56,791 nucleotides of DNA. Origin: Clostridia bacterium (GTDB taxonomy: Bacteria; Bacillota; Clostridia; Oscillospirales; CAG-382). The position numbers were made by a program, and so were the translations under genes. Shown one piece after another: positions 16,334 to 56,791 of this stretch (position 1 is the first letter of the stretch; each line of letters begins with the position of its first letter). The DNA lies in the NCBI GenBank assembly GCA_017381715.1, contig JAFOBR010000093.1, positions 1-56,791 on the forward strand. Reading direction: 5' to 3'. The notes beneath the pieces are model-generated. The model had not been told where the DNA came from and did not search any database. It worked only from the letters and a program-made list of their open reading frames with translations.

Positions 16334-17743
16334 TTATTTTACTTCGTGAATATTTACGTGATACTTAGCGTCTGCTACGTTAGCAAGAGCTGCTGCTACC
16401 TTGTCGCCTTCATTTCTCTTTTCAAAGAACTTGGTTGCAACCTGATCAAACAGCGCATAAGAAAGAACGTCTTCTTCCTGCTTAGCGTACTGAGCACACT
16501 TTTCACGGAGTGTGTCAAGCTCGGGCTTGAGGTTATCGGCGGGACGGCAAGTGATTGCGGGTTCATCACCGATAATCTTCTTTCTGAATTCGGGATCGAT
16601 CTCAACGGGAGTTCTACCGTAATCACCGCGTACAACGCCCTTGAATTCCTTAGTAACGGTCTTGTAACGTTCGCCCATAAGAACATTAAATACTGCCTGA
16701 GTACCAACGATCTGAGAAGTGGGAGTTACGAGAGGAACCTGACCTGCGTCAGCACGTACTCTGGGAACTTCTTCAAGAACCTCCTGAAGCTTGTCTGCCT
16801 TGCCTGCCTGCTTAAGCTGAGAAAGAAGGTTGGAAAGCATACCGCCGGGTACCTGATAAATAAGACCGTTAACGTTGACCTTCATCATCTTGGGATCAAG
16901 CTGACCGGTAGCAAGATACTTTTCACGAAGAGTGTTGAAGTAATCAGCCGCTTCGTTGATCTTACCGAGATCGAGACCGGTATCAAAAGGAGTTCCCTGG
17001 AAGGTTGCTACGATAGGCTCCGTAGGAGGCTGAGAAGTACCGCCTGCGAGAGGAGAAAGTGCAGTATCAACTACATCTACCCCAGCCTCAACTGCCTTCA
17101 TAATGGTCATAGAAGCGATACCTGCGGTATAGTGGGTATGAAGCTGAACGGGAATGTTACAGATAGACTTGATAGCGGTTACGAGATCATATGCATCGTA
17201 AGGCTTGAGAAGACCTGCCATATCCTTGATACAAATGGAATCTGCACCCATTTCTTCAAGAGTCTTTGCATATTTTGCAAAGTATTCGTTGGTGAATATT
17301 TCACCGGTGGTATAAGAAAGACAAGCCTGAACGTGTCCGCCCTCTTTCTTGGTAGCGTTAATAGCGGTCTTAAGGTTTCTGGGGTCGTTAAGTGCGTCAA
17401 AAATTCTGCTTATATCGATACCGTTTGCGATAGACTTCTGTACGAAGTATTCAACAACGTCATCTGCATAATGTCTGTAACCGAGAATGTTCTGACCGCG
17501 GAAAAGCATCTGGAGTTTGGTGTTCTTAACGTGAGAACGGATGGTGCGGAGTCTTTCCCAAGGATCTTCGTTCAAGAAACGAAGGCAAGAGTCAAATGTA
17601 GCGCCGCCCCAAGCTTCGAGAGAGTGATAACCAACCTGATCAAGAATCTCCAATGCAGGAAGCATTTCTTCGGTGGTCATTCTGGTAGCTATAAGAGACT
17701 AGTGAGAGTCACGAAGAATTGTTTCAGTTATTTTAAGTGCCAT
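16334..17743 (-). CDS. oadA: Oxaloacetate decarboxylase alpha subunit (carboxyltransferase) with in-frame TAG
   Basis: 470 codons from ATG 17743 (GGAGG 8 nt upstream). The frame reads MALKITETILRDSH, then TAG at 17701-17699, then SLIATRMTTEEMLPALE and an intact carboxyltransferase and PYC/OADA domain to TAA. The family motif here is RDxHQSLxATR: TAG replaces the invariant Gln, and the preceding Asp is a metal ligand. Restarting at the ATG of MTTEEM would lose that site. OadA moves CO2 from oxaloacetate to the biotin carrier; biotin sits on a separate protein, so no C-terminal biotin domain is expected. Mutation, base error or TAG decoding are all possible. Confidence 0.88.
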
Positions 17744-17758
17744 ATTAAATACCTCCGA

Positions 17759-18973
17759 TTATCTGAAAATAGTGAGGAAAACGCCGGCTGCAACCGCAGA
17801 ACCGATAACGCCGGATACGTTGGGACCCATTGCGTGCATAAGAAGGAAGTTGGAAGGATTTGCCTTCTGACCAACGGTCTGGGAAACACGCGCTGCCATA
17901 GGTACAGCAGAAACGCCTGCAGAACCGATAAGAGGATTGATCTTTCCGCCGGTAGCAAGATACATAATCTTTCCGAAAACTACGCCTGCAGCGGTAGCAA
18001 AGGCAAATGCACAAAGACCAAGAACGAGAATGCCGAGAGGGCTGGTGAGAATAGTAGCGGGATTATTGAAATCCAAAGAACCGAAGAATGCATCTGCAGT
18101 AGCGGTTGCACCAACGGAAACGCCGAGAAGAATGGTAACTATGTTACAAAGTTCATTCTGCATAGTTTTTGCAATTCTATCTACAACACCGCTAACCTTT
18201 GCAAGGTTACCGAGCATAAGAGAACCGATAAGGGGTGTAGCATCGGGAAGAATCATACAAATAACCAAGCAGGTAACAACAGGGAACAAAACTTCTTCTG
18301 TCTTGGAAACGGGACGAAGCTGCTCCATCTTTACAGAGCGTTCCTTTTTAGTAGTGAGCATCTTCATAATGGGAGGCTGGATAAGAGGAACCAACGCCAT
18401 ATAGGAGTATGCTGCAACCGCGATAGCGCCGAGAAGTTGAGGAGCCAGATCCTTGGTAACAAGAATTGCGGTAGGACCGTCTGCACCGCCGATAATACCG
18501 ATAGCGGCAGCTTCAAGAGAAGAGAAGCCGAGAAGCATTGCGCCTATAAAAGCTGCAAAAACACCGAACTGTGCAGCAGCACCGAGAAGCAAGCTCTTGG
18601 GGTTAGCAATAAGAGGTTTGAAATCGGTCATTGCGCCTACGCCCATAAAGATAAGACAAGGATAAATGCCGAGCTTTACGCCAAGGTAAAGGTAATCAAG
18701 CAAACCGCCGTGTGCGGCAAGTTCTGCCCAATTGATATTGGCGCTGGATTCCTGAACGAAATAATTCATGTGGAAAATTTCGCCAACAGGTATATTTGTA
18801 AGGAACATACCAAAAGCTATAGGGAGCAGAAGCAAAGGCTCAAACTTAAACTTAACAGCAAGAACCAAAAGAACAAAGGAAATAGCAATCATTATAATAT
18901 TGCCCACTTTGAAATTCTCTACTCCGAACGCAGATGAATTCAGTATGCCCAAGATGGTTTCAACTATAAACAT
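17759..18973 (-). CDS. oadB: Na+-pumping decarboxylase beta subunit
   Basis: 404 residues, around ten membrane helices. [21 protein letters not shown] in the middle contains the conserved Asp region for Na+ coupling, and [21 protein letters not shown] the second conserved membrane segment. It decarboxylates carboxybiotin and exports Na+. ATG 18973 follows GGAG. It lies between the biotin carrier and oadA; the oadA start is 16 bp after its stop. Confidence 0.93.
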
Positions 18974-19009: not shown

Positions 19010-19420
19010 TTAACCGATAACGTAAAGAAGATCGCCGGAATTAACGGTTGCGCCTTCGCTAACGGAAACGGAAGCAACGGTACCGTCTACGGGAGCAACG
19101 ATATCGTTTTCCATCTTCATAGCTTCGATAACACAGAGAACGTCGCCGGACTTAACAGCCTGGCCTGCTTTTGCAACAACCTTAAGAACGGTGCCGGGCA
19201 GAGGAGAAGTAACCTTTTCTCCGCCTGCTGCGGGAGCGGGTGCTGCTGCGGGAGCGGGTGCTGCTGCAGGAGCGGGAGCTGCTGCGGGTGCAGGAGCTGC
19301 TGCGGGAGCGGGAGCTGCTGCGGGAGCTGCCTTGGGAGTGTATACTTCGTTGGGATTAGCGTCCTCAACGACTACTTCATATTTGTTACCGTTTACGGTG
19401 ATAATGTACTTTTTAGCCAT
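19010..19420 (-). CDS. Biotin carrier protein of the decarboxylase
   Basis: 136 residues: a short N-terminal strand domain (MAKKYIITVNGNKYEVVVE), a flexible Ala-Pro linker (about residues 31-65) and a biotinyl domain with EAMKMEND, Lys102 being the biotinylation site. It carries carboxybiotin from OadA to OadB. It is equivalent to the gcdC/mmdC-type subunit, so glutaconyl- or methylmalonyl-CoA decarboxylase is excluded only by the OadA-type carboxyltransferase next to it. Confidence 0.9.
   Translation of the reverse strand: MAKKYIITVNGNKYEVVVEDANPNEVYTPKAAPAAAPAPAAAPAPAAAPAPAAAPAPAAAPAPAAGGEKVTSPLPGTVLKVVAKAGQAVKSGDVLCVIEAMKMENDIVAPVDGTVASVSVSEGATVNSGDLLYVIG
19220..19330 (-). repeat. 18-bp tandem repeat coding the Ala-Pro linker
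   Basis: About six near-identical 18-bp units (plus-strand form GCTGCTGCGGGAGCGGGT) encode AAPAPA repeats. Such arrays change length readily by slippage, so linker length may vary between strains. Confidence 0.8.
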
Positions 19421-19434
19421 TTTAAAAACTCTCC

Positions 19435-19935
19435 TTAATCAATTTGTGTAATGGAAATAACATTAAACGCACATTCGCTTTCGCCTCTTGCAGCTGCGAT
19501 GGCGGCAGTAGCGACAGCAACAACCTCTTCCTCATTGTTGGTTGCGGCCGGAGCGGCAACAACAGAAGGAGAAACGGGTGCGGGTGCGGGTGCGGATTCT
19601 TTAACAGAAGCAGCCTTTTTGGACTTTGCTCCGAATATCCACTGGAAAACGTAAAGAACTATCATAAGCACAATGAGTACTGCGAATACTACGAGCATGC
19701 CTACCAAAGTTACTTTTCCTCCGTGAGCGAGTCTTTCCATGAAAGTACCTTCGCCGTTTTCGATAATTTCGAAAATGGTTTCACCGTTATTTTCTGTTAC
19801 GGCGGAATTTTCTGTCATGGATTCTTCTTGTGAAACATCCTCGGAGCCCTCTGCAAACGCAACAACCGAAGTCATGCAGATTACCATAACGAGAGCGATA
19901 AGAACGCACACAAGTCTTTTGCAATTGAATGACAA
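19435..19935 (-). CDS. oadG: Na+-pumping decarboxylase gamma subunit (OadG family)
   Basis: 166 residues: an N-terminal signal-like segment (CKRLVCVLIALVMVICMTSV), a short acidic region, one membrane helix (VTLVGMLVVFAVLIVLMIVL, about residues 75-95), a charged/Ala-Pro stretch and the terminal AVATAAIAAARGE typical of OadG. It anchors and assembles the complex. The start appears to be TTG 19935 with only a weak GGAAGGGAAG site upstream. First gene of the oadG-carrier-oadB-oadA operon. Confidence 0.8.
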   Translation of the reverse strand: MSFNCKRLVCVLIALVMVICMTSVVAFAEGSEDVSQEESMTENSAVTENNGETIFEIIENGEGTFMERLAHGGKVTLVGMLVVFAVLIVLMIVLYVFQWIFGAKSKKAASVKESAPAPAPVSPSVVAAPAATNNEEEVVAVATAAIAAARGESECAFNVISITQID

Positions 19936-30405: not shown

Positions 30406-31007
30406 TTAATAAAATCTAAAATTTGCAATTACTACGCCCAAAACAACCACATCGGTTGTATATATAGGCTTCATTTTGGGATTCTCCGGTTGGAGTCTTA
30501 CGCTGTTTTTTTCACGGTAGAAGCGCTTCACTGTAGCCTCATCGTCGAGCAACGCCACAACTATTTCACCGTTCTCAGCATAGCGGCGGTTTTCGACGAT
30601 AACTATGTCGCCGTCAAGTATACCGGCATTTATCATACTCTCGCCTTCAACGCGAAGAGCGAATAAATTACCGTTACCTCGCGCCATGCTCGCAGGATAA
30701 TCTACGTATCCTTCACAAGTTTGTATGGCAGTAATAGGTACACCGGCAGCTACTTTTCCCAAAATGGGAACACGGAGCATTTATCCGGTTCTCCCTTGCG
30801 TTCTATTTTGACAGCACGGCTTTTTCCCTGTTCTTTCTGGATATACCCCTTCTCTTCTAAACGTCGCATATAAGCGTGTACAGTGGAAGTGGAGCGAATG
30901 CCTAAAGCCGCAGCAATGTCACGAACGGAAGGAGCATATCCATCGTACATAATCTTTTCCTGTATAAACTCATAGACATTTCTTTCGTTTTCAGTGAGGT
31001 CAAACAT
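30406..31007 (-). pseudogene. lexA: LexA SOS repressor, frameshifted
   Basis: Two overlapping frames make one LexA. The first (from ATG 31007, GGAGG 8 nt upstream) gives the winged-helix DNA-binding domain, with GYAPSVRDIAAALGIRSTSTVHAYMRRLEEKGYI; the second (from about 30782) gives the autocleavage domain, with VPILGKVAAGVPI (Ala-Gly cut site), GESMINAGILDGD (catalytic Ser) and VKRFYRE (catalytic Lys). They are one base out of register at an AAA run (30780-30782); one extra A would restore a normal protein of about 200 residues. This is either an assembly error or a real loss of a single-chain repressor. The second frame has its own ATG at 30780. Confidence 0.85.
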
Positions 31008-39937: not shown

Positions 39938-40789
39938 ATGTCCGATTTTGTTAAAAAGAAAAAATACGGGCAGAATTTTCTTACCTCCGACCGTTTCCCC
40001 GCTCGCATAGCAGCGGAAAGCGGTATTACATCCGAATGCGGTGTTATTGAAATAGGTCCCGGCTTAGGTGTGCTTACAAAACAACTCCTTTCCGTTGCGA
40101 AAAAAGTTGTAGCCATCGAAATTGACGAAGAGCTTATCCCTATTCTTAACGAAAAATTTGCACAGCACGATAACTTTCTTTTAATAAACAAGGATATACT
40201 TGAGATAGACTTGGGTAAACTTATTGAAGAACAGTTTGCCGGTATGCCGGTTTGCGTTTGTGCCAACCTTCCATATTACATTACTACCCCCATCCTTATG
40301 AAGCTTCTGGAAGGTAAGCACGGTTTCCGTACAATTACCGTAATGGTGCAAAAAGAGGTTGCGCAAAGATTGTGCAGCAAATGCGGAGACAGCGAATACG
40401 GTGCAATCACCGCTTCTGTAAACTATTATTCATCTGTAAAAAGGCTGTTTCCTGTAAAAGCAGGCAGTTTTTCTCCCCCGCCAAAGGTTGATTCGGCTGT
40501 TATAAGATTCGATCTTTATGATACTCCCCCTATCACACCTGCAGATGAAAATACATTTTTTGCAGTAATACGCGCCGCCTTTGCTCAACGAAGAAAAACC
40601 CTTTTAAACGCTCTGTGTACTGCGTTCGGTGACAGACTCTCCAGAGAACAGCTTGCGGATTTTATTAGCGAAGCAGGGCTTAAACCGGACGTGCGCGGTG
40701 AAAAGACAGATAATAAAACGCTGTGTTTTATTTCAGATAAAATATTTTTTAACATAAACGGAGGCAAACAAAATGAGCACTTACACTAA
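39938..40789 (+). CDS. rsmA: 16S rRNA dimethyladenosine transferase
   Basis: 283 residues. KKKYGQNFL at the start, SAM motif EIGPGLGVLTKQLL, catalytic NLPYYITTPI and the C-terminal AFAQRRKTLLNAL are diagnostic of RsmA/KsgA. It dimethylates two adenines near the 16S 3' end. GGAGG precedes the ATG. The last 17 bp overlap the start of pckG, and the terminal residues in the overlap are not family-conserved. Confidence 0.94.
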   Translation: MSDFVKKKKYGQNFLTSDRFPARIAAESGITSECGVIEIGPGLGVLTKQLLSVAKKVVAIEIDEELIPILNEKFAQHDNFLLINKDILEIDLGKLIEEQFAGMPVCVCANLPYYITTPILMKLLEGKHGFRTITVMVQKEVAQRLCSKCGDSEYGAITASVNYYSSVKRLFPVKAGSFSPPPKVDSAVIRFDLYDTPPITPADENTFFAVIRAAFAQRRKTLLNALCTAFGDRLSREQLADFISEAGLKPDVRGEKTDNKTLCFISDKIFFNINGGKQNEHLH

Positions 40790-42572
40790 AAATGCAAAAC
40801 TCAACGCATGGCTCGACGAAATGATCGAACTGTGCAACCCCGACAATGTTGTTATGATCGACGGTTCCGACGAACAGATCGAAGCACTTCGCGCAGAAGC
40901 TTGCGCAAACGGCGAAATGTTCAAGCTTAATCAGGAAAAGCTTCCCGGTTGCTATCTCCACAGAACTGCAGTTAACGACGTTGCACGTGTAGAAGGCCGT
41001 ACCTTCATCTGCACTCCCACCAAGGAAGAAGCAGGTCCCACCAACAACTGGATGGATCCCAACGAAATGTACGCAAAGCTTCTCGCTCTTTACAAGAATT
41101 CTTACAAGGGCAGAACCATGTACGTTATCCCCTACTCCATGAGCGTTGTAGGCAGTGATTTCGCAAAGAACGGTATCGAACTTACCGATTCTATTTACGT
41201 TGTTCTCAACATGATCATCATGACCAGAGTTGGCACCGCTGTTCTTGAAGCTATGGGCGAAAACGGCGACTTTATCAAGGGTCTCCACGCAAGAGCAGAT
41301 ATGGACGAAAACAACAAGTATATCGTTCACTTCCCTCAGGACAACACCATCATGTCCATCAACTCCGGCTACGGCGGAAACGTTCTTCTCGGCAAAAAGT
41401 GCTTCGCACTCAGAATTGCTTCCTACCTCGGCAGAAACGAAGGCTGGATGGCTGAACACATGCTTATCCTCGGTATCGAAACTCCCGAAGGAGAAACCAA
41501 GTACGTTGCAGCTGCATTCCCCTCTGCTTGCGGTAAGACCAACTTGGCAATGCTTATTCCTCCCAAGTCCTACACCGATAAGGGCTACAAAGTTACCTGC
41601 GTAGGCGACGATATCGCTTGGATCAGAGTAGGCAAAGACGGCAGGCTCTGGGCTTGCAACCCTGAAAACGGCTTCTTCGGCGTTGCACCCGGTACCAACG
41701 TTAAGTCCAACCCCAACGCACTCGCTTCTACTATGAGCGGCACCATCTTCACCAACGTTGTTCTTAACAATGCTGACAACACCGTTTGGTGGGAAGGTCT
41801 TGATAAGAATCCTCCCGTTGACGCTATCGACTGGAAGGGTCGTCCTTGGAACGGTAAGGAATCCACCGAAAAGGGTGCTCATCCCAACTCCCGTTTCACT
41901 GCTCCCGCAAAGAACTGCCCCTGCATCTCTTCTGAATTTGATAATCCCGAAGGCGTTCCCCTTTCCGCTATCATCTTCGGCGGCCGTCGCGCAAAGACCG
42001 CTCCTCTGGTATACCAGTCCTTCGATTGGAAGCACGGTACCTTCGTTGGTTCTATCATGGCTTCCGAAACTACCGCTGCAGCTTCCGGCGCAGTTGGCGT
42101 AGTAAGAAGAGATCCTATGGCTATGCTTCCCTTCTGCGGCTACAATATGGGCGATTACTGGGCACACTGGCTCAAGATGGGCGAAGTTACCCCCAATCTT
42201 CCTAAGATCTTCCACGTTAACTGGTTCAGACTTACCGATGAAGGCAAGTTTATGTGGCCCGGCTTCGGCGACAACTTCCGCGTTCTCGAGTGGATCCTCA
42301 AGAGATGCGAAGGCAAGGTTGACGCTGTTGAAACCGCTATCGGTTACGTTCCCAACGCTGAAGACATCAACCTCGAAGGTCTTGATTACGAGATCGAAGC
42401 AGGCAGAAAGTTTGATATCAACGAGCTCAAGAACATCCTTACCGTTGAAAAGGATTACTGGCTCGCTGACTTCGAAAACATCAAGGAATTCTATGCAAAA
42501 ATCGGTGATACCGTTCCCGCAGAACTTCGTAAGCAGTAGGAAGATCAGCTTGCAAGACTTTCCGCAATGTAA
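40773..42572 (+). CDS. pckG: GTP-type phosphoenolpyruvate carboxykinase, C-terminus interrupted by TAG
   Basis: The first stop is TAG at 42537-42539 (588 residues); ten codons follow in frame to TAA 42570. FPSACGKTNLAML is the PEPCK kinase loop with the reactive Cys, and NWFRLTDEGKFMWPGFGDN the GTP-enzyme guanine-site region. It interconverts oxaloacetate and PEP. The codons after TAG (EDQLARLSAM) are in this gene's strong bias and align without gaps with the usual C-terminus (vertebrate PCK1, from memory, ends in QRISQM), so TAG appears to sit inside the natural gene. GGAGG precedes the ATG, and the start overlaps rsmA. Confidence 0.9.
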
Positions 42573-53696: not shown

Positions 53697-54437
53697 GCCT
53701 ATCTGAAAAGCAATAATATTAGCCGCAGCGGAAGCAGATAAGGAATACTGACAGTTTCTGGGGTACGGTATGCTTAAGGTAATGTCCGCTTTTTCCAAAA
53801 CGTTTTTGGAAATCCCTCGTTTTTCCCCGCCTAAAATAAGGCAAAGCGGTCTGGAAAGCACAGTATCGTAAACGCTTACGGAGCTTTCGCTTTTTGCAGT
53901 AGCGGCAACAGTATATCCTGCGTCGGAAGCCAAGGAAACGGCTGAGCCAAGATCGTCGGTAACCGCTACTTCAAGATATTCGGAAGCACCTGCGGAAGAA
54001 CGTATTACGATATCCGAAGACACAAAGAAATTTCGCTCCGGCAAAATAACACCGTCTGCCCCTGCGGCGTAAACGGTACGTAAAACGTAGCCGAAATTAT
54101 ATGGATCCTCAATTCCGTCGATAACCAGAATATATCCCTTTTTATTGCACAGCAGTTTTTCGGGACGGCAAAACCTGCGTTCCCCCACCTCTGCTGCAAT
54201 TCCCCCCGCCGTATCTCCCGAAGTAAGAACCAAAAACTCATCGGGTGAAACGAAATCAAGATGTATGCCGCTTGCTTTTAAAGCGCCGTATTGCTTCTTT
54301 TCATTATAGTGGTACTTACTGCGCATAACTTTATTATATCGCTCTGTATCAAGTATAATGCGGTCTATACGACGTTTCCCGCCGCGTATTGCCGCAGAAA
54401 CGGAAATGTATCCGCAGATAACAGTGGTATCGTTCAT
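53631..54437 (-). CDS. TrmH-family (SPOUT) RNA ribose methyltransferase
   Basis: 268 residues. An N-terminal substrate-binding part (1-100) precedes the knotted SPOUT domain with VIDGIEDPYNFGYVLRTVYAAGADGVIL, CLILGGEKRGISK and IPYPRNCQYSLSASAAANI, the three TrmH motifs (the last usually MxxxxSLNVSxAxxI). It methylates a ribose in rRNA or tRNA. The last 22 codons overlap yunB antisense. Its ATG overlaps the end of the DHHW gene (ATGA). Confidence 0.87.
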   Translation of the reverse strand: MNDTTVICGYISVSAAIRGGKRRIDRIILDTERYNKVMRSKYHYNEKKQYGALKASGIHLDFVSPDEFLVLTSGDTAGGIAAEVGERRFCRPEKLLCNKKGYILVIDGIEDPYNFGYVLRTVYAAGADGVILPERNFFVSSDIVIRSSAGASEYLEVAVTDDLGSAVSLASDAGYTVAATAKSESSVSVYDTVLSRPLCLILGGEKRGISKNVLEKADITLSIPYPRNCQYSLSASAAANIIAFQIGSIIAPPDDFGNLADDDCLGNT

Positions 54438-55495
54438 TTTTTGTACAGCCTTTCAATGTTTTCGCAAAAGACAGAACTGTTTGCGTTTGTTGCGTAGGAT
54501 AAAAACAAAACCGTATCGGCATTTAAAATTATATCATCGGTACTTTTAAGCATATTGGGATTATACAAGGTGATCTCTTTAAAATGAGGCAGTAAAAACG
54601 GAATAAATGCATGGGCAGAAGTATCCCCTATTATTGCAAGCGTACCGCCTTTGGATCTGGTTTCAAACTTATATACGGGCTTTTCATCGCCGATAAATAC
54701 ACTGTAACCATCCTCTGCCGAAATTTCTGTGCCGATATATTTAAGAGTATGAGTCATATATCCGTCTTCGTATGACGTGATATAACAAGGGTGCTCTTTC
54801 TCTATACGATAATAAACTATAGTATCCGCATTGTCAAGAAGCATTTGGCTTTTTGTTGCCGTATAAAACCATCCGAGATAGTTTTCAAGCTCTACGGTCT
54901 CGTAATTTTCAAGCGGCACCGGCTGTAAATTTGCAGCTTTACAAAATTCGGTGTATGCATAATACGCCCCTAATGCTGTCCAGTTATAATCAGTACGAAA
55001 ATAGATATATTCATCCTTATGGGCGTACAAAACGTCGTAAATATCTATATTTTTAACTTTATCCATAGCAAGCGAAGAGGCAAAAACAGCTTCCTTTTGG
55101 GAATTGCAGTAGAAATTATCCTCCGCCATTACTGCTACAGGGATATCAAGATATTCGGCTTGGGTAGGCACGGTAATACTGAATATTTTTGCGCAATCAA
55201 TTTCCCCTGCAAAACTGTTCAAAACATCTGCGTACCGCTGACCGGTATATACCGTTCCGTTAAACTGTTGTAACGCTCTGTCATAATATAAATACGAATA
55301 CCCCAGTTTATTGATCACCCAGCCTCTTTCCATGGCTTTTTCTGTAAAATCCGAAATATCGCTTGTTTCTTCGTTTTGACCGCTTGGAAGAGTATCCTCC
55401 GGTTGATTTTTGAAAATTGCCACGGCGATAAGTATTATAAGAATTATTGCCAAAGCGGTTATAAGGGATACGGTAAGCAAAGTTTTTTTGTTCAT
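54434..55495 (-). CDS. DHHW-family SGNH-like exported protein
   Basis: 353 residues. A signal anchor (MNKKTLLTVSLITALAIILIILIAVAI) precedes a region with YFRTDYNWTALGAYYAYTEF, the family's RTDHHWT motif, here with YN in place of HH. VFIGDEKPVYKFE and IIGDTSAHAFIPFLLPHF supply the further core strands with Asp and Ser of an SGNH/AlgX-like fold. DHHW proteins are thought to act on acyl groups of surface polymers; loss of the two His makes activity here doubtful. ATG 55495 has GAGGT upstream; coupled to the methyltransferase gene by ATGA. Confidence 0.7.
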   Translation of the reverse strand: MNKKTLLTVSLITALAIILIILIAVAIFKNQPEDTLPSGQNEETSDISDFTEKAMERGWVINKLGYSYLYYDRALQQFNGTVYTGQRYADVLNSFAGEIDCAKIFSITVPTQAEYLDIPVAVMAEDNFYCNSQKEAVFASSLAMDKVKNIDIYDVLYAHKDEYIYFRTDYNWTALGAYYAYTEFCKAANLQPVPLENYETVELENYLGWFYTATKSQMLLDNADTIVYYRIEKEHPCYITSYEDGYMTHTLKYIGTEISAEDGYSVFIGDEKPVYKFETRSKGGTLAIIGDTSAHAFIPFLLPHFKEITLYNPNMLKSTDDIILNADTVLFLSYATNANSSVFCENIERLYKK

Positions 55496-55551
55496 AACAA
55501 TACCTCTTTTCATATATGGTATTGTTTACCGTTTTTGCAAAAATTATCCTT

Positions 55552-55588
55552 AATAAAAGATAGTGCGTATCCTTTAAAGATACGCACT
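55552..55588 (-). terminator. Terminator of ftsH
   Basis: AGTGCGTATC and GATACGCACT (55562-55588) pair; the minus strand then reads ATCTTTTATT. Confidence 0.8.
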
Positions 55589-55601
55589 TTAACTTTGTCA
55601 T

Positions 55602-56791
55602 TTAGTGAGGAACTACGTCTTCCTTTTCGTCGGAATCCTTGGGCTCCTCTTTCTTTTCTTCGTTTACCTTAAGCTCTTCACGGCGTTTTTCGTTTGCAAC
55701 GCGTATACGCTCGGTTTTTTCCTCGCGCATTTTTTCTAAGGTTTCCATATTGCAATTCTCTTCAAAAACAGCGTTGAACTGGTCTTCATCCATAATTTCG
55801 TACGCTACAAGATAATCTACAATAAGGTTAAGCTTATCCATATTTTCACTAATAATCTTCTTTGCCTTATTATATGCATCTGTAATTATACGATGAATTT
55901 CGGAATCGATCTTTGAAGCTATTTCTTCGGAATAATTACGCTGGGTAGAATAATCTTTTCCAAGGAAAACTTCGTCGTGTCCGGTACCGAATACGATAGG
56001 ACCGAGCGTATCGCTCATACCGTAGGTAGTAACCATCTTACGTGCGATTTCGGTAGCGCGCTGAATATCGTTGGAAGCGCCACCGGAAATATCATCACAG
56101 CACAGCTCTTCTGCAACACGTCCGCCCAAAAGTTCGGATATCTTGTTTTGCAGTTCGCCGCGATAAACGCTCCATCTGTCTTCCTTGGGCAAAGAAAGTG
56201 TGTATCCCAAAGCGCTGCCGCTGGGAATAACGGATATCTGACGAACAAATCATCGGGATTAAGAACACGGGAAATAATGGCGTGACCTGCTTCGTGAATA
56301 GCGGTCTTGCGTTTTTCCTCGGGCTTAATGATTCTGGAACGCTTCTGAGTACCGACAATAACCTTAATTGAAGCTTCTTCTATATCCTCCATAGAGATAA
56401 CGGCCTCGCCCTTGCGAGCTGCCAGCAATGCGGCTTCATTAAGAAGGTTGGAAAGATCCGCACCGGTAAAACCGGGTGTGGACTTTGCTATGGTTTCAAG
56501 ATCAACGTCATCGGAAAGGGGCTTGTTTCTTGCGTGTACGGCGAGTATCTCCGTACGTCCCTTAATGTCGGGATAAGAAACGGTTACCTGTCTGTCAAAA
56601 CGACCGGGACGAAGTAATGCGGGATCCAGAATATCGGGTCTGTTGGTAGCGGCAATAACTATAACGCCATCGTTAACGCCAAAGCCATCCATTTCTACAA
56701 GCAACTGGTTAAGTGTCTGCTCACGTTCATCGTGTCCGCCGCCCCAGCCTGCGCCTCTGTGTCTACCCACAGCATCGATTTCATCAATGAA
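55602..56791 (-). pseudogene. ftsH: ATP-dependent membrane protease FtsH, partial and frameshifted
   Basis: The gene enters from the right edge in the AAA+ domain ([15 protein letters not shown], Walker B region; [20 protein letters not shown], second region of homology) and reads to the zinc motif [16 protein letters not shown]. There the frame changes: the continuation [23 protein letters not shown] and the rest of the protease domain, with a charged C-terminal tail, lie in the other frame to TAA 55602. One extra base in the three-A run at 56247-56249 (plus strand) would restore it. Because FtsH is important in most bacteria, a sequencing error is more likely than a real break. Confidence 0.88.

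Follow-up and report, generated by a model that had tools for sequence, protein, structure and literature searches.

An in-frame TAG at the conserved active-site glutamine codon of oadA, probably a recent nonsense mutation, in a Clostridia genome

Results

An oxaloacetate decarboxylase operon with an interrupted alpha subunit gene

The window, a 56,791-nucleotide stretch of DNA, is contig C10 of a 1.80-Mb genome (G000; 1,800,064 bases in 102 contigs, ~95% complete) from a Clostridia bacterium. Its minus strand carries the alpha, beta, and gamma-like subunits of an oxaloacetate decarboxylase and a biotin carrier in one run. The features of this locus were as follows.

16334..17743, minus strand: oadA, carboxyltransferase (alpha) subunit of oxaloacetate decarboxylase, 469 codons plus TAA with the TAG read through
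17699..17701, minus strand: TAG, codon 15 of oadA by direct reading, where RDxHQSLxATR has its conserved Gln
17752..17756, minus strand: GGAGG, Shine-Dalgarno-like, 8 bases ahead of the ATG at 17743
16334..17680, minus strand: open frame left 3' of the TAG, 448 aa from the ATG at codon 22, without the RDxHQ part of the motif
17759..18973, minus strand: oadB, beta subunit of sodium-translocating decarboxylase, intact, 404 aa, stop-free (TIGR01109, 472.7 bits; cut-off, 190.6)
19010..19420, minus strand: separate biotin carrier, intact, 136 aa, stop-free (best NCBIfam model MmDecMmdC, 128 bits; cut-off, 200)
19435..19935, minus strand: gamma-like subunit of sodium pump decarboxylase, intact, 166 aa, stop-free (TIGR01195, 50.5 bits; cut-off, 36.05)

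From the ATG at 17743, the oadA frame reads MALKITETILRDSH-TAG-SLIATRMTTEE and is thereafter open up to the TAA at 16334. Direct reading thus bears out the original prediction of a GGAGG-preceded ATG, the sequence RDSH-TAG-SLIATR, and an open frame beyond it. The read-through protein, and only that form, is assigned as an OadA equivalog by NF008985 (768.5 bits; cut-off, 718). It contains the domains PF00682 (68.7 bits) and PF02436 (190.6 bits), and it scores 691.3 against TIGR01108, a longer model that includes the carrier domain, under the cut-off of 756.5. The RDxHQSLxATR motif does not lie intact in one open frame, as the TAG occupies its Gln codon.

The next in-frame ATG, at codon 22, is not preceded by a Shine-Dalgarno-like stretch within 20 bases. 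The 448-aa frame that begins there still matches PF00682 (56.5 bits), with the match starting at profile position 24, and its product is without Arg11, without Gln15, and without Asp12, the motif residue that we take to be the metal ligand. A downstream restart would therefore miss the motif, as had been predicted. We also rejected a parallel truncation in another 448-aa protein, P0003, which keeps its whole N terminus and owes its shortness to an internal deletion. On the plus strand, an 863-aa antisense frame (16346-18937) lies over oadA and oadB and is open in the same-genus genome G001 too. We rejected it as a gene and regard it as a shadow of codon bias, since its substitutions concentrate at the first position of its codons (124, 6, 14).

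The partner genes and other carboxyltransferases

In the enzyme described in PMC7274780, the alpha subunit carries out carboxyl transfer, and the beta subunit is responsible for decarboxylation and sodium transport. Beta and gamma genes adjoin the alpha gene here, and both exceed their cut-offs (TIGR01109 and TIGR01195), as in a sodium pump of the OadA/OadB/OadG type with a separate carrier. The locus resembles such a pump in having alpha, beta, gamma-like, and carrier genes in one run, and differs from it in that the alpha gene is broken by a TAG at codon 15. The carrier, which falls under the cut-off of every NCBIfam model, has a gene of its own, whereas in the Salmonella enzyme, by the same account, it sits on the alpha C terminus; that source also gives the carriers of methylmalonyl-CoA and glutaconyl-CoA decarboxylases as separate (PMC7274780).

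We saw no sign of operon decay. The partner genes are constrained on the G000 branch, with own-branch nonsynonymous-to-synonymous counts of 2:23 for OadB, 1:8 for the carrier, and 1:4 for the gamma-like subunit, which is ordinary constraint. The prediction that the other subunits are intact and the operon does not look decayed thus holds for all three, each of which is full length and stop-free.

Searching with the read-through protein returned a single oadA match in G000, and none of the three further PF00682 genes matches the OadA query, which argues against rescue by a second copy. We likewise rejected a methylmalonyl-CoA-type partner carboxyltransferase, since no PF01039 carboxyltransferase was found in G000, whereas the search detected this family in 12 of the 14 genomes used as controls. 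Neither an acetyl-CoA carboxylase carboxyltransferase nor a methylmalonyl-CoA decarboxylase alpha subunit of the PF01039 family was thus found in this genome.

Conservation of the interrupted glutamine codon

An OadA match was present in 51 of the 60 genomes searched with the read-through protein, G000 among them, and loci from 29 of the 50 other genomes were kept and read codon by codon. Codon 15 encodes Gln in all 29 relatives (28 CAG, 1 CAA), and it is CAG in all four same-genus genomes (G001 to G004). Apart from G000, an internal stop occurs among the listed matches only in G035, in a fragment of 165 bases at a contig edge (TGA). In a set of 80 named GTDB loci, a few of which come from the same genomes as the 29 relatives, 79 have a Gln codon (71 CAG, 8 CAA); the exception, L123, is a motif missed by the search expression. 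The residue is Gln in 120/120 homologous proteins, these being the 120 best of 7,997, and in the solved structures 2nx9 (OadA of Vibrio) and 5ks8. The motif Gln had been called invariant in the family, and these sets agree, L123 apart. In an exact-pattern scan of 394 genomes of the order, only G000 showed the TAG form of the motif; the scan had no control of its own, though by inspection its pattern shape would fit 28 of the 29 relatives.

A role in substrate binding is suggested by Rhizobium etli pyruvate carboxylase, for which Arg548 and Gln552 are described as permitting pyruvate binding (PMC10653868). Judging from the RDxHQ spacing, these residues would correspond to Arg11 and Gln15 here.

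Decoding machinery

The original prediction left two readings of the TAG side by side, a mutation one base from CAG or a codon decoded as Gln, and it pointed to prfA, a CTA-anticodon tRNA, and the pyl genes as the places to look. Release factor 1 is present and intact, with prfA scoring 506.7 bits (cut-off, 423.25), exceeding the cut-off in two models, and retaining GGQ. The Rfam model found 35 tRNAs, which were typed with ARAGORN, and none of them has a CTA anticodon; a laxer search did not enlarge this set, which also lacks Ala, Ile, Phe, and Cys tRNAs. Both Gln tRNAs (TTG and CTG) are present and normal. PylS is absent by score, its best match reaching 22.5 bits against a cut-off of 178.15, and on this gene we rejected pyrrolysine decoding. 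The prfA and PylS results speak against TAG as a sense codon, and the tRNAs, an incomplete set, give no sign of a suppressor.

Stop codons facing sense codons in sister species

We compared 445,173 of the 1,800,064 bases of G000 with the corresponding stretches of sister species, covering 283 genes and 101,223 codons. oadA entered this census via a third-position test, as the antisense frame overlaps it. As the sister genes were themselves called as open frames, neither the census nor the branch counts can register a stop in G001 or G003. The terminal codons of 255 genes were TAA in 185, TGA in 59, and TAG in 11, and in each of the 11 TAG-ended genes, the TAG is shared at that position with at least one sister. 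G001 and G003 both have Gln at 1,523 codons, and there G000 has CAG in 1,088 cases, CAA in 392, and TAG in one; at 3,059 codons with Tyr in both, it has TAG once. In total, G000 has a stop at a sense codon shared by both sisters in 5 cases among 75,541 codons, 2 of them TAG and 3 TAA. Besides the oadA TAG (Gln), these were as follows.

42537..42539, plus strand: TAG, in-frame and the second such in the window, facing Tyr; codon 589 of 599 in the GTP-dependent PEP carboxykinase gene (40773-42572)
Contig C25, 55520, plus strand: TAA, codon 543 of 655 of metG, methionyl-tRNA synthetase (L085; gene 53894-55858), facing Glu
Contig C22: TAA, codon 6, facing Gln
Contig C85: TAA, codon 191 of 198, facing Gln

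TAG is therefore neither frequent at such places, nor tied to one amino acid, nor unlike TAA. Separately, at 30783 G000 has a TAA opposite a Lys that the two sisters encode with different codons; identity there is ~77%.

The PEP carboxykinase gene, named by NF003253 (843.5 bits), is 98-99% identical to its sister orthologues, and its TAG removes 11 codons. Codon 589 is Tyr TAC in G001, G003, and G004, and G002 is open there. Matches end at query positions 588-591 in six distant relatives (G042, G045, G011, G007, G009, and G038) and reach 596-598 in G010, G008, G039, and G043, and with the distant matches stopping at such differing ends, the tail is not kept throughout. Both window TAGs lie in enzymes of the oxaloacetate node, an observation that rests on two cases. 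The TAA in metG, where both sisters have Glu, would cut 113 codons from the end of an enzyme expected to be essential.

Counting any stop against at least one sister, 25 of the 283 genes have one, mostly in the first 40 codons or the last 8, where the sister frame starts earlier or ends later. We ran a symmetric test restricted to codons beyond codon 40 and more than 8 from the end, a range outside which the oadA stop falls. G000 frames gave 5 stops in 265 matches against G001 and 5 in 226 against G003; in the opposite direction, G001 frames gave 5 in 270 and G003 frames 4 in 227; and between the sisters, there were 5 in 257 (G001 against G003) and 1 in 256 (G003 against G001). Stop totals are thus similar in each direction. 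At an identity of at least 96.6%, two stops remain, those of PEP carboxykinase and metG, and both are in G000.

These counts bear directly on the reading of TAG as Gln, whether throughout the lineage, as in the code 15 of crAss-like and other gut phages treated in PMC9523058, or through an amber suppressor tRNA missing from the assembly. What speaks for it is the pair of in-frame TAGs in conserved window genes (Gln in oadA, Tyr in PEP carboxykinase), the incomplete tRNA list, and the rarity of TAG as a stop (11/255). Under code 15, TAG would be expected at many conserved Gln columns, unused as a terminal codon, and accompanied by a lost or changed release factor 1. In G000 it stands at 1 of 1,523 Gln codons in the sample, terminates genes at conserved places, and coexists with an intact prfA; the other TAG faces Tyr, and TAA gives similar in-frame cases. 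The likeness to the phages is limited to a TAG where relatives have Gln, and the difference is that it concerns one site in a chromosomal, housekeeping-type gene. A screen of over 250,000 genomes, as reported in PMC8629427, gives the known bacterial stop reassignments as UGA and names pseudogenes as a source of false stop inferences. On the codon census, the conserved terminal TAGs, and the intact prfA, we rejected genome-wide decoding of TAG as Gln, and the broader reading that includes a suppressor is already close to refuted. A narrower form of it, weak lineage-specific amber suppression by a tRNA missing from the assembly, would make TAG ambiguous, rare as a stop and tolerated at Gln15 of OadA and Tyr589 of PEP carboxykinase. 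We hold this to be most improbable; if true, reassignment of TAG would be at an early point here, with release factor 1 still present in the bacterium.

Changes on the G000 branch

Ten oadA codons of G000 differ from all four same-genus genomes. Eight of these are synonymous, and the other two are the change of Q15 to a stop and I112S.

17408..17410, minus strand: codon 112 of oadA, AGC (Ser), second protein change on the G000 branch; ATC (Ile) in the four same-genus genomes

The same count gave 1 nonsynonymous change of 10 in G004, 1 of 15 in G001, 1 of 22 in G003, and 14 of 60 in the more distant G002. At position 112, the 120 best of 7,997 homologues have either Ile (105) or Leu (15). Both protein changes at the G000 tip are thus unusual, which is expected either of a freshly inactivated gene or of two base errors.

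The second of these options is the main rival to a nonsense mutation, namely, that a base error or strain mixture in the metagenome-assembled sequence has produced the TAG and the organism's own oadA is intact. The fragmentation of the assembly is in keeping with this, as are the other nonsense differences against both sisters, including those in metG and PEP carboxykinase, and the placement of I112S, the sole other protein change on the oadA branch, at a site where all 120 best-listed homologues have Ile or Leu. On the other side, the single-base changes at the G000 tip have a profile like that of the sisters. There were 721 nonsynonymous and 6,191 synonymous changes (0.116, against 0.134 and 0.107 in the sisters), and radical changes made up 0.064 of the nonsynonymous ones (46/721), compared with 0.062 and 0.061 in the sisters and 0.307 for random changes. 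In the window alone, the radical share was slightly raised (0.116 versus 0.103 and 0.080), and in the larger single-base set it was level. Such a profile speaks against numerous errors but leaves room for a few. We consider an artefact possible though on balance unlikely.

Context of the stop

UAG is known in general to be misread by Gln-tRNA, and both normal Gln tRNAs are present. It is thus conceivable that the stop is real and leaky, being read in part by near-cognate Gln-tRNA(CUG), which would restore the native residue and yield a little working enzyme. We found no sequence sign of programmed read-through, and structured elements are lacking both 3' of the TAG (z-score, 0.20) and around it (0.91), so a programmed read-through structure was rejected. 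The base after the TAG is U, and U after UAG is a poor context for read-through. Leaky decoding appears very unlikely.

Discussion

The codon-15 TAG of oadA is best explained as a recent single-base nonsense mutation under ordinary stop usage, with predicted loss of the carboxyltransferase; we give this reading, for a base known from the assembly alone, a probability of roughly 0.6. Of the two readings originally left side by side, the mutation has stood, with CAG in all four same-genus genomes, the change placed on the G000 branch, and the operon otherwise intact, and decoding of TAG as Gln has not, given prfA, the tRNAs, PylS, and the census. The earlier description of the change as one base from CAG that removes the active-site motif fits the same data. 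Additional support comes from the nonsense differences in G000, which are not confined to TAG. The remaining oadA changes are almost all synonymous, which suggests that the mutation is young.

Against this, the own-branch spectrum of the whole sample shows no general relaxation, and the partner genes are constrained. It is also a slightly odd coincidence that two TAGs fall in conserved genes on one 57-kb contig, both at the oxaloacetate node.

If the mutation is real, the ribosome would halt after 14 residues, and a product restarted at Met22, lacking the metal-ligand Asp and the substrate-binding Gln, would be inactive. This would leave the beta and gamma-like subunits and the biotin carrier without a carboxyltransferase partner. 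As oadA is the last of the four genes, translation of the other three should be unimpaired.

Like ordinary nonsense alleles and young pseudogenes, the oadA stop is a one-base change at a single tip, with intact sister orthologues and other stops elsewhere in the genome; it is unlike them only in its striking place inside an invariant motif. As it stands, a nonsense change in one metabolic gene of one genome matters little. It does serve as a warning against inferring recoding from a single in-frame TAG in an invariant motif, even within an intact operon, when TAG does not recur at conserved columns. For the organism itself, as neither a second oadA nor a PF01039 carboxyltransferase was found, a real mutation predicts a strain without biotin-dependent oxaloacetate decarboxylation and without its contribution to the sodium gradient.
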